Below, piece by piece: positions 36,601 to 45,600 of a stretch of 64,000 nt of DNA. The stretch is from Pegea sp. RAD2-039 (Eukaryota; Chordata; Thaliacea; Salpida; Salpidae): positions 186,001 through 250,000 of the forward strand of contig JAQGEQ010000213.1 of the NCBI GenBank assembly GCA_034620365.1, read 5' to 3'. The notes below the pieces were generated by a model, which was given only the letters and a program-made list of their open reading frames with translations, made no database searches and had not been told where the DNA came from. Position numbers and translations under genes: made by a program. Within the stretch, counting starts at the first letter, position 1, and every line of letters begins with the position of its first letter.

Positions 36601-39600
36601 TCAACAAAATCTAGCAGCACAACAAAGAAACCAAAAATGACGACTGTTACACCTGGAGATATTTGCTCTGAACCAATGGATCTGACAGATGTGTACGGAA
36701 CACCAACATCAGTTACTCCACGTGTCTCAGCTTCTAGCAATCAACCTGAAAATGGTGAAGGTCGACTTGACTCCAGCAAACCATGGACTCCAACTACTGA
36801 AGACATCAATGAGGATGATGATACTTGGATTCAAGTTGAGTTTGATGAAGCCGTGTATATTTATGGATTAGTTGTAAAAACTGAAGATGAAGATAGTGTA
36901 ACAAAGATCAAAGTTGATTACAAACTCGCTGATAACGAAGACTGGTTACCAGTTCAACCATCTAGTGATGTAGAAGACTTTGCTATTGATTCCGATGACA
37001 ACAAACCATCTGTCATTTACTTCCCTGATAACAAACCAGTTCTAGTAACAGTTATTCGTGTACACCCAACTGAATGGAGTGGTGACAAACCAGCTATTCG
37101 AGTTGGTCTTTTAGGATGTTACAAGCTAGTCGAAACAACTACAACTATCGAAAAAACAACAGAAATTGTTACAACTACATCTAAACCATCTGTAGATGAA
37201 ACAACTCCTCTAATTGTTGGATCAACTACACAAAAATCATTTGAAACCACAGAGTCAATCGAAGAAACATCTACAACTCATGTAGAAGCAACTACACCTG
37301 CTATTGATGAAGTAACAACAGTTGTTTCAACTTCAACATCTAAAGTTGCTACTACTGAAGGTAATTTATTTTAATTGCACTCATAAGCAAGCAACTGGTC
37401 TTCAAATATTTCTGAATTTTCTGGGCAGTTTCTTAATTCATAGGAAATGAGATTCAATGTAAATCATGTAAAACGTTATTAACAATATAATTTCTATTTT
37501 ATGTATTAATCCTTTATTACATTACTTACCATTTAACTTTAAAACAACTTAAAAAGAATCCCTTTAATCTTACTTTTAAAACAGTTTGAGAATAGTTGTA
37601 AAGTCGATGTATTGATAATATCAATAAGTCTACTAATGTTTCTAAATTGGTTTCATTTTGATAGGTCCTTGCTATGACTCACTTGGAATGGAATCAGGCC
37701 TTATCCGTGATGATCAAATATCTGCATCATCATCAAAGACACCAAAACTTCCTCAAAATGCTCGTTTGATCACCGACTCGTCATCTGATGATAAAGCATC
37801 GTGGTCACCAAGTGATGATGATACAAGTCCTTATTTGGAAGTCAGCTTTGATGAACCAACTCAGATCACAGCTATTTCAACTCAAGGTGGATCTGATGGC
37901 GGATACGTCAGTAAATTCTTCGTAGAGTATCTCTCAACTGAAACTGATAAATGGGAAGTTGTTAGTAAACAACCGAAAGATCTTGTGTCAGACACACAAT
38001 CAACTTCTACTTTGATCTTCCAAGCCAACTTTGATTCAACAAGTGTTGTAAAGAATCGTTTGGATGTTCCAATAATTGTTAGTAAGATTCGAATATACCC
38101 AGTTGTTGATGAAGATTCTGCTGATGTAAGTCTTCGTATTGATTTGAATGGTTGTGGCAAGGGACTTGAAACTACAACTCCTGGATCTTCATCTGAACCA
38201 ACAACTACAGTTTATGAAGTGATTAATACAACTCAGGTTGTTGTGAAAACAACTAAGCCACTTGTTAGTACACCAGGTCAGTAAGTAAACATCAAGTAAA
38301 CTTATCAATGATTTATTTGTTGTTTGTTTGAACTTCAATTGCTGATAAACTTTTCTAATAGGTACTGTGAAAGAAACAACAGTAGAAAAGAAAACCACTG
38401 AAGTGATTACTACAACTCCAATCATACCAACAACACCAGAAGAACCATATACAAATGCTCCAACAACTGTTGTTGAAACCACTACGACTGGTTCGTTAAG
38501 ATTTATCTTCTGATCTTACTATGGATTTCTTTTTAAATTCTTTTTAAACAGAAATTTACACCACTTCATCTCCATCAACCACAAAAGCTTCACGAGATAG
38601 AGATACAACAACAACAAAAGAGATAAAAACTACAACATACAAACCAGTAGTAGTTGAAACCACTTCATCAGAAGGAAAACTAGATACAACTACTGCATTT
38701 GAAAAAGTCACAACTACCGAGCTCTCGACATCATCTAAACCAACTGGAACTACAAAATCTCCACAAGATCTTACCACAGAGTCTACTGAAAAGGAAACTA
38801 CTAAGTTATCTGAATCAAGTTCAACCACTTCACCATTTGTTACTACAACAGTGATTGGCACAACTTCTGAAGTTCCTACACATGAAACAACTGTGGTGTC
38901 CACTCTTGTTGAAACATATGCTCCAAGTACAACTGGTAAGTAACAATTAGATATTAAACTAAAGTTTGTTTGATCAAATAATCCATTGAAATTTATTTTC
39001 AACAGAAAAACCATCAGAAACCAGTACAAAGAATGTGATTGAAACAACTAAGCTGGTAACTGAAAAGCCAAAAGCAACTACTTCAGTACCAGGAGATATT
39101 TGCTCTGAACCAATGGATCTGACAGATGTGTACGGAACACCAACATCAGTTACTCCACGTGTCTCAGCTTCTAGCAATCAACCTGAAAATGGTGAAGGTC
39201 GACTTGACTCCAGCAAACCATGGACTCCAACTACTGAAGACATCAATGAGGATGATGATACTTGGATTCAAGTTGAGTTTGATGAAGCCGTGTATATTTA
39301 TGGATTAGTTGTAAAAACTGAAGATGAAGATAGTGTAACAAAGATCAAAGTTGATTATAAACTTGCTGATAACGAAGACTGGTTACCAGTTCAACCATCA
39401 AGTGATGTAGAAGACTTTGCTATTGATTCCGATGACAACAAACCATCTGTCATTTACTTCCCTGATAACAAACCAGTTCTAGTAACAGTTATTCGTGTAC
39501 ACCCAACTGAATGGAGTGGTGACGAACCAGCTATTCGAGTTGGTCTTTTAGGATGTTACAAGCTAGTCGAAACAACTACAACTATCGAAAAAACAACAGA

Positions 39601-42600: not shown

Positions 42601-45600
42601 ATCATCAAAGACACCAAAACTTCCTCAAAATGCTCGTTTGATCACCGACTCGTCATCTGATGATAAAGCATCGTGGTCACCAAGTGATGATGATACAAGT
42701 CCTTATTTGGAAGTCAGCTTTGATGAACCAACTCAGATCACAGCTATTTCTACTCAAGGTGGATCTGATGGCGGATACGTCAGTAAATTCTTCGTAGAGT
42801 ATCTCTCAACTGAAACTGATAAATGGGAAGTTGTTAGTGAACAACCGAAAGATCTTGTGTCAGACACACAATCAACTTCTACTTTGATCTTCCAAGCAAA
42901 CTTTGATTCAACAAGTGTTGTAAAGAATCGTTTGGATGTTCCAATAATTGTTAGTAAGATTCGAATATACCCAGTTGTTGATGAAGATTCTGCTGATGTA
43001 AGTCTTCGTATTGATTTGAATGGTTGTGGCAAGGGACTTGAAACTACAACTCCTGGATCTTCATCTGAACCAACAACTACAGTTTATGAAGTGGTTAATA
43101 CAACTCAGGTTGTTGTGAAAACAACTAAGCCACTTGTTAGTACACCAGGTCAGTAAATAAACATCAAGTAAACTTATCAATGATTTATTTGTTGTTTGTT
43201 TGAACTTCAATTGTTGATAAACATTTCTAATAGGTACTGTGAAAGAAACAACAGTAGAAAAGAAAACCACTGAAGTGATTACTACAACTCCAATCATACC
43301 AACAACACCAGAAGAACCATATACAAATGCTCCAACAACTGTTGTTGAAACCACTACGACTGGTTCGTTAAGATTTATCTTCTGATCTTACTATGGATTT
43401 CTTTTTAACTTCTTTTTAAACAGAAATTTACACCACTTCATCTCCATCAACCACAAAAGCTTCACGAGATAGAGATACAACAACAACAAAAGAGATAAAA
43501 ACTACAACATACAAACCAGTAGTAGTTGAAACCACTTCATCAGAAGGAAAACTAGATACAACTACTGCATTTGAAAAAGTCACAACTACTGAGATCTCGA
43601 CATCATCTAAACCAACTGGGACTACAAAATCTCCACAAGATCTTACCACAGAGTCTACTGAAAAGGAAACCACTAAGTTATCTGAATCAAGTTCAACCAC
43701 TTCACCATTTGTTACTACAACAGTGATTGGCACAACTTCTGAAGTTCCTACACATGAAACAACTGTGGTGTCCACTCTTGTTGAAACATATGCTCCAAGT
43801 ACAACTGGTAAGTAACAATTAGATATTAAACTAAAGTTTGTTTGATCAAATAATCCATTGAAATCTATTTTCAACAGAAAAACCATCAGAAACCAGTACA
43901 AAGAATGTGATTGAAACAACTAAGCTGGTAACTGATAAGCCAAAAGCAACTACTTCAGTACCAGGAGATATTTGCTCTGAACCAATGGATCTGACAGATG
44001 TGTACGGAACACCAACATCAGTTACTCCACGTGTCTCAGCTTCTAGCAATCAACCAGAAAATGGTGAAGGTCGACTTGACTCCAGCAAACCATGGATTCC
44101 AACTACTGAAGACATCAATGAGGATGATGATACTTGGATTCAAGTTGAGTTTGATGAAGCCGTGTATATTTATGGATTAGTTGTAAAAACTGAAGATGAA
44201 GATAGTGTAACAAAGATCAAAGTTGATTATAAACTTGCTGATAACGAAGAATGGTTACCAGTTCAACCATCTAGTGATGTAGAAGACTTTGCTATTGACT
44301 CCGATGACAACAAACCATCTGTCATTTACTTCCCTGATAACAAACCAGTTCTAGTAACAGTTATTCGTGTACACCCAACTGAATGGAGTGGTGACGAACC
44401 AGCTATTCGAGTTGGTCTTTTAGGATGTTACAAGCTTGTTCAAACAACTTCGATTTCTTCTCCAATCATGAAGTCTACCACGATATCCGTAGAGTCTACT
44501 TCTTCACTTCCTAGCAGTACTACTGAAAGTGTTTCTGCTTCAACTTTTGTTGATTCTGATACAACGCCCTTTGAGTTTATTACTACTCGAAAAACTTTTC
44601 CAACTTTCACTGAAACTGTAGTTTACTCTTCTACTTCTTCTGGTGAGGGAACTATTAGTAAAATGGTGTCAGAAACAGCTCCATCATCTGCTACTACTTC
44701 TACTATTCGTACAAACCAACCTTTAACAACAGTTAAAGATTCTTCTGTTCCATCAGTATTTACATCCCATCCTATTGATGTTGTAGTAACCACTCCCCAA
44801 GCTGATACTACTTCGGTCTCATCTGATGATACCACAGTTGTTAGTGAACCCATCACTACAATTGTTGAGGAAGTTGTTAGTACTACAAGTGGCTCTGTTC
44901 TCGTCACTACATTGCATACTAGCAGTTCATCATTTACAGTGATGGAAGGAACTACATCTTCAACTCCTCTTCTAGAAACAACATCTGTTGACAAGAAAGT
45001 AGTCACAACTACTCCTTCTACTGACAGTCCTTCTTCATCCACACCAAATTCAATCGTTGAAACTACTACTGTAAAGACAATTACAACATCACCACTGCTT
45101 GATTCTTCAACAAAAGCACTCGACCAATCAAGCACTATTGTGGAAACAACAAAATCTGTTCAAACTACATCTTCTCACACTAGTACTGAAACACCATTGA
45201 GCAAAACTACAAAATCTGCTTTGAAAACCTGTGCTGATGAGATAATCTTGCTAACTCAGTACCAAGGTTAGTGTTTTACCTTACAGTTATACTTTGTAGT
45301 GTGCTACTTATTTATTACCTATTACACACAAAAAAAAAATACTATTTCCTATAAGTCACTTCATACATAATTTGATGTTTTGAATATTGTTTTAGGTATT
45401 CCAATTCCACAGTCTGTTTATGCAGCATCTAGTAACAGCGAGCTTGCTGGAAAAACTGTTGATCTTAGCTTAGATAGTTCGCAACGTACACAAGCGTGGA
45501 CACCTTCTGCTGATGATGAAGAGCAATTTGTTCAAATTTATTTTGATACTGAAGTAACAGTTGTACAGCTACTTCTACAAGGAGCTATTGACTCTGGTTA

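Follow-up and report, generated by a model that had tools for sequence, protein, structure and literature searches.

According to the available part of the published account of the human gene LPA, its kringle IV type 2 (KIV-2) repeats are 5.5-kb units of two exons that occur in 1 to more than 40 copies, and gene conversion is named in that account (PMC4378929). The gene DMBT1 encodes 7 to 20 SRCR domains per molecule, and this number is described as the result of copy-number change within the gene (PMC4851238). In this study, we analysed a window of 64,000 nucleotides (nt) from the salp Pegea sp. RAD2-039 (GenBank assembly GCA_034620365.1, contig JAQGEQ010000213.1, positions 186,001 to 250,000 of the forward strand), in which positions 36655-44436 hold a tandem array of units that encode discoidin (F5/8C) domains. 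All positions given below are those of the window. We consider this array to be a clear new example of the known route by which genes lengthen sticky proteins. It was probably formed when a module of several exons was amplified in tandem, recently, within a giant gene of the gel-forming-mucin/VWF type.

A comparison of the 20-mers shared within the window gave offset peaks at 2437 (2291 word pairs), 4872 (2180), 2435 (1933) and 7309 (333), and each of the remaining 14 offsets found had at most 64 word pairs. These offsets and the alignment bear out the extent of the array and the periods of 2437, 2435 and 2437 bp that were proposed in an earlier, sequence-only reading of this stretch. The array is made of three head-to-tail units and a partial fourth copy, as had also been proposed:

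36655..39091, + strand: repeat unit 1, 2437 bp (k-mer offsets, alignment)
39092..41526, + strand: repeat unit 2, 2435 bp (k-mer offsets, alignment)
41527..43963, + strand: repeat unit 3, 2437 bp (k-mer offsets, alignment)
43964..44436, + strand: fourth copy, partial (473 bp) and limited to the D1 discoidin domain (offset 7309 to 36655-37127; own-genome DNA search)

The pairwise identity of whole units is 98.1-98.6% (98.64% with 33 differences, 98.11% with 46 and 98.40% with 39), and the only insertions or deletions (indels) are two single bases, both within intron A of unit 2. When unit 2 was used as a DNA query against the assembly (105.7 Mb, 387 contigs), the matches listed fell at 4 places, all of them at the array; this own-genome search scores the best candidates only. 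For background, 20 stretches of 10 kb, a small sample taken entirely from one large contig (C1), were scanned for offsets from 200 bp upwards, and a single one, 270 bp, came up to the mark of 60 shared 25-mers. The edges of the array coincide with domain borders.

Each unit contains, in order, a first discoidin domain (D1), a Thr/Ser tail, an exon with a second discoidin domain (D2), two Thr/Ser-rich exons and a short linker. The parts are located as follows:

36655..37125, + strand: discoidin domain D1, copy 1 (PF00754, 45.4 bits, cut-off 28.2)
39092-39562, 41527-41997 and 43964-44434, + strand: the other D1 copies (the four D1 copies are above the PF00754 cut-off)
37361..37664, + strand: intron A of unit 1 (others 39798-40099 and 42233-42536), GT..AG, phase 1
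37665..38276, + strand: exon with D2 and its tail, copy 1 (others 40100-40711 and 42537-43148), PF00754 at 64.9-65.5 bits across the three copies
38362..38490, + strand: Thr/Ser-rich exon muc3 of unit 1 (others 40797-40925 and 43234-43362), gene model
38552..38935, + strand: Thr/Ser-rich exon muc4 of unit 1 (others 40987-41370 and 43424-43807), gene model

All 4 D1 and 3 D2 copies exceed the curated cut-off of the Pfam family F5_F8_type_C (PF00754), which agrees with the earlier claim that each unit adds two discoidin domains together with mucin-like tails. A cysteine is present at each end of D1 and of D2, and the best PDB match of the D2 copy of unit 2 is neuropilin-2 (E 2.5e-25). The tail after D1 has 78 amino acids, of which 46% are Thr or Ser; the corresponding share is 48% in muc4 (384 nt) and 40% in muc3 (129 nt), and muc3 shows no difference among the three units. 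The coding sequence of a unit is 1917 nt (639 amino acids), of identical length and free of stop codons in 3 of 3 units, so that the reading was right to place each unit in frame. In the predicted model, the coding sequence of a unit falls into five pieces, and the lengths of the four introns in unit 1 are 304, 85, 61 and 70 nt. The introns are all GT..AG and all in phase 1, and because of this shared phase, added units should stay in frame. The claim that the splice sites are kept therefore stands as far as the GT..AG consensus in each unit is concerned, although these sites are consensus matches in a gene model of our own making. Small exons predicted in intron A at 37444-37467 (unit 1) and 39880-39909 (unit 2) were rejected as spurious: none is predicted in unit 3, and direct splicing keeps D2 intact.

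The array was also claimed to lie inside one gene, and the predicted model supports this. The model was built with a self-trained exon-chaining script that had the array exons in its training set, and the spurious exons of intron A were removed before the count, which gave 105 introns in the modelled gene. Its parts outside the array are as follows:

24592..58357, + strand: predicted gene, exon-chaining model with 106 exons and 7413 amino acids, including two doubtful first exons (23904, 24160)
24859..26009, + strand: EGF-like repeats (gene model, Pfam EGF families)
25845..31654, + strand: three VWD-C8-TIL assemblies (PF00094, E 4e-97, 3 stretches; PF08742, E 1.1e-46, 3 stretches; PF01826, 4 TIL stretches)
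33398..33760, + strand: LDL-receptor class A domain (26.7 bits, cut-off 24.1) and VWC-like stretch (26.2 bits, cut-off 27.6), before the discoidin block
34203..34745, + strand: discoidin domain Da, split over two exons, with 42% identity to D2; perhaps part of an older layer
35080..35960, + strand: discoidin domain Db, three exons (PF00754, 48.6 bits)
45396..46040, + strand: discoidin domain Dc, two exons, the 5′ end of the domain perhaps in the preceding exon (PF00754, 46.8 bits)
58023..58357, + strand: C-terminal cystine knot and stop codon (PF00007, E 2.9e-5, 24.7 bits against a cut-off of 24, which is weak but over)

As modelled, this gene is laid out like a gel-forming mucin or von Willebrand factor. 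In mucins and VWF, multimerisation is the task of the VWD block and the cystine knot. The third VWD-C8-TIL assembly has PDB matches to FCGBP, MUC5AC, VWF and MUC2, and the VWC-like stretches in the gene score 24.7-26.2 bits, all below the cut-off of 27.6. Da, Db and Dc each exceed the PF00754 cut-off, and the ten discoidin domains are ordered Da-Db-D1-D2-D1-D2-D1-D2-D1-Dc. The modelled protein contains 1118 Thr and 789 Ser among its 7413 residues. An EMI domain, which had been suspected at the N-terminus, was dropped for want of Pfam support. Three minisatellites, at 47827-47982, 49165-49360 and 52069-52343, have periods of 15, 24 and 30 bp, each divisible by three; they fall in Thr/Ser-rich exons of the modelled gene and are thus mucin-type repeats beside the domain array.

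The units differ from one another at 14, 20 and 12 of 1917 exon sites (0.6-1.0%), compared with 19 of 518, 26 of 520 and 27 of 518 intron sites (3.7-5.2%). Intron divergence is therefore approximately five to eight times exon divergence, and the statement that the introns are almost as similar as the exons has to be withdrawn. All introns together also exceed the silent sites (7, 12 and 7 of 472, or 1.5-2.6%) in divergence (Fisher P 0.045, 0.048 and 0.0014). This excess over silent sites is due to a single 108-bp segment. With gaps included, 36 intron columns are variable among the units; one scan window of 108 bp holds 20 of them, a number that 0 of 5000 shuffles reach. The first part of intron A (37374-37481 and its copies) is 7-16% divergent between units, compared with 2-3% in the remaining introns. 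Without 37374-37481, whose bounds were chosen post hoc after the variable sites had been seen, introns and silent sites show no difference (Fisher P 0.17, 0.83 and 0.24), and the two agree at 1.5-2.9%. A homogenisation of exons only, through conversion mediated by complementary DNA, had been raised by the excess of introns over silent sites; it was rejected, since beyond the 108-bp segment the excess has no statistical significance.

By their silent sites and most of their intron sites, the copies look young. The earlier proposal that they are either recent or under conversion is supported as the alternative in which it was framed. The protein sequence of the units looks constrained: 13 silent and 10 replacement sites vary among them, on approximately 472 and 1445 sites, respectively (Fisher P 0.001), and the pairwise ratio of replacement to silent divergence (pN/pS) is 0.22-0.32 for the three pairs, which are not independent. 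This shortage of replacement changes suggests that the protein encoded by the units matters. For new repeat copies across proteins in general, relaxed purifying selection and positive selection are reported in the available part of one account (PMC5120217), whereas replacement changes are depleted in this array.

In a recent amplification, the copies would have been produced by unequal exchange between homologous D1 segments. Because such an exchange would yield n units and one D1, it would explain the extra terminal D1. Gene conversion may then have held the D1 copies alike. The first and last D1 copies differ at 7 of 157 codons, and 4 of the 7 differences are silent. At the first D1, identity drops from approximately 98% inside the domain to less than 60% in its linker. 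This linker still resembles the linker of the second D1 (protein shuffle z score 4.2; 5 of 5000 shuffles were equally good). We infer that the D1 segments have been kept alike by exchange and that the tracts end near the domain border.

The same observations can be approached from the opposite direction. The array could be old and uniform through gene conversion, in which case concerted evolution would mimic youth and the linkers and domains at the edges would have escaped and diverged. The protein of the first D1 copy (D1_1) is 98-99% identical to those of the other D1 copies despite a linker directly upstream that matches the linker before the second D1 at 19 of 33 bases, and the contrast between the 108-bp segment and the other introns, with the longest run of variable sites of the same type inside that segment, points the same way. 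Across all 55 variable sites the types are clustered (30 runs, P 0.038; longest run 9, P 0.0055), and introns alone give P 0.066 for the runs and P 0.0027 for the longest run. However, exons alone have no excess of runs (P 0.43), and the agreement of silent sites with introns outside the hypervariable segment is what one recent age predicts. The run of 9 and the hypervariable segment must be counted as one observation and not as separate evidence, because the run sits in the segment. We therefore regard an old, homogenised array as unlikely.

Upstream of the array, at 34203-36263, the discoidin domains and linkers resemble the amplified module in an older and decayed state. In the comparison with other discoidin domains, Da reaches 42% identity (to D2), and Db and Dc reach 20-35%. 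Array pieces were compared with 24 Thr/Ser-rich exons outside the array, and the best four matches per query were considered. By z score, the D2 tail is best matched by the exon that carries the tail of Da (z 8.4), and muc4 by the exon that lies behind Db (z 6.4, compared with 3.0 for the next match). This pattern suggests that an earlier copy of the D2-to-D1 module, since diverged, extends from Da to D1_1, with Db as an extra domain. Because Thr/Ser-rich sequence is low in complexity, the older layer is likely but not certain. In a maximum-likelihood tree built from five domains, the branches were so long that the tree could not be trusted.

Several results weigh against recent amplification by exchange, or against the older layer that we place beneath it. 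In regard to conversion, exons alone are as free of clustering by their longest run (P 0.93) as by the number of runs, the longest run falls inside the hypervariable intron segment (in unit 3), and the four D1 copies are in conflict at one site only; the evidence for conversion thus appears modest. The linker or tail after the last D1 shows no comparable relationship (z -0.06), and the flanks of the array, aligned as DNA, gave 11-base matches only. In regard to the older layer, part of the evidence comes from low-complexity sequence. The D2 tail has a distant exon as its second match (z 7.1), the D1 tail matches a distant exon best (z 5.8) with the exon behind Db second (5.4), the expected partner of muc3 is third by z score, though it has the top raw score among the four best, and the piece link5 finds its best match in the exon before Da. 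The splicing is a prediction of the gene model, the copy number is that of one assembly, and polymorphism is a hypothesis. Finally, a signal peptide was not found in the model, in which the exons before 24592 are doubtful; the claim that the protein is secreted is accordingly kept as likely from the domain set, and its first exons and signal peptide were not found with confidence.

A further possibility, which we consider improbable, is that the array lies in the gene but is partly silent, either because transcripts skip units or because length changes have no functional effect. This would be compatible with the origin by recent amplification proposed above. All array joints are in phase 1 in the model, so that sets of exons could be skipped without a frame shift, but the depletion of replacement changes in the units argues against it. 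An assembly artefact, in which haplotypes or read errors gave a false tandem duplication, is very improbable: although there is a single assembly and near-identical units can be miscounted by assemblers, 33, 46 and 39 pairwise differences among three units, with indels in addition, exceed what two alleles can supply, the array edges lie on domain borders, no matching unplaced contig occurs among the matches listed, and, among offsets from 200 bp upwards, only 1 had as many as 60 shared 25-mers in the small sample of 20 C1 stretches.

Discoidin domains are known to serve as binding heads in other proteins. In the proposed function of this gene, the VWD assemblies and the cystine knot would build a secreted polymer, the Thr/Ser stretches would act as O-glycosylated spacers, and the discoidin domains would be the binding heads, two of which would be added by each unit with a gain of avidity in mucus, clot or adhesive. 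The protein probably acts as a many-headed secreted polymer of mucus, of an adhesive or of a clot. Copy number may vary between individuals. More tentatively, it is possible that this gel-forming mucin gene contains an array of discoidin domain pairs that is still living and polymorphic and in which the exchange tracts are bounded by the domain, and that animals differ in the number of heads per polymer, which would tune adhesion or microbe capture, all of this atop an older, decayed layer.

Some observations concern other parts of the window and the assembly. At 4805-5572 of the window, on the minus strand, an intact frame has its best PDB match (E 3.6e-131) in proteasome subunit alpha type-7. 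Among the matches listed, the strongest discoidin match outside this gene (46.7 bits) is at 697670-700843 of another contig, C83, and a second discoidin match lies nearby, at 696208-696573, in a frame with 3 stops. For 18S, there is one well-matching gene (1417 bits, cut at the locus edge) and two weaker matches (856 and 298 bits), which are perhaps decayed or broken copies. The telomere word TTAGGG, taken as four copies, matches 81 times in forward and 5 times in reverse orientation, and TTAGG in five copies has no match. Innexin and cuticle-collagen profiles had no match either, but they are uninformative, since they also failed to match any of 14 control genomes; a COX1 profile likewise had no match. 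Glass sponges, which came into question through their compact genomes, were discounted as a source, since 1.59 introns per gene are reported for one such species, compared with the 105 of the single gene modelled here.

Among proteins of related composition, gel-forming mucins, VWF and FCGBP share with this gene the three VWD-C8-TIL assemblies, the Thr/Ser-rich stretches and the terminal cystine knot; unlike them, this gene has ten discoidin domains in the middle of the protein. Hemocytin and hemolectin of insects are described as huge VWF-like proteins with a discoidin domain, and VWD blocks and discoidin domains also occur together in this gene. The discoidin domain of hemolectin is reported to be required for the clumping of bacteria; the available part of the description mentions no discoidin array. 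Nectin of echinoderms is an adhesive protein with six tandem discoidin domains, and EGF, VWD and discoidin domains are described as a recurrent combination in temporary adhesives (PMC10057474). The footprints of sea stars contain VWD-C8-TIL proteins and discoidin proteins (PMC9382459). Unlike the salp gene, Nectin is described as having a signal peptide and discoidin domains only, and the available part of its description includes no young array.

The closest parallels are DMBT1 and LPA. The sequence-only reading had set the array apart from the variable repeats of mucins because whole folded domains are added. That much is correct, but it is not new, since LPA KIV-2 and the SRCR domains of DMBT1 precede it. 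DMBT1, also known as salivary agglutinin in humans, is likewise a large secreted epithelial glycoprotein, whose binding domains are interspersed with SID spacers and variable in number; it differs in that its domains are SRCR domains and that CUB and zona pellucida domains, but no VWD block, are listed in the available part of the account (PMC4851238). In human LPA, as here, in-frame tandem multi-exon modules within one gene encode a whole folded domain, and the introns are copied as well (PMC4378929). The kringle domain of LPA belongs to another gene family, and its unit carries one domain, compared with two and mucin spacers in this case. Polymorphism is proved in LPA, and both variation and bacterial binding are documented in the available account of DMBT1, whereas the array described here is known from one assembly. 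In the predicted model, the salp array shows what marks LPA KIV-2 and DMBT1, namely, near-identical in-frame multi-exon units that encode whole domains in one gene. It offers a snapshot of a giant protein of the mucin kind in the course of gaining whole binding domains, with young units beside seemingly older, diverged relatives. If the number of units varies between individuals, this gene would be a counterpart of the LPA and DMBT1 systems in an organism whose genome is small, and domain number could there be tied to adhesion or microbe binding.

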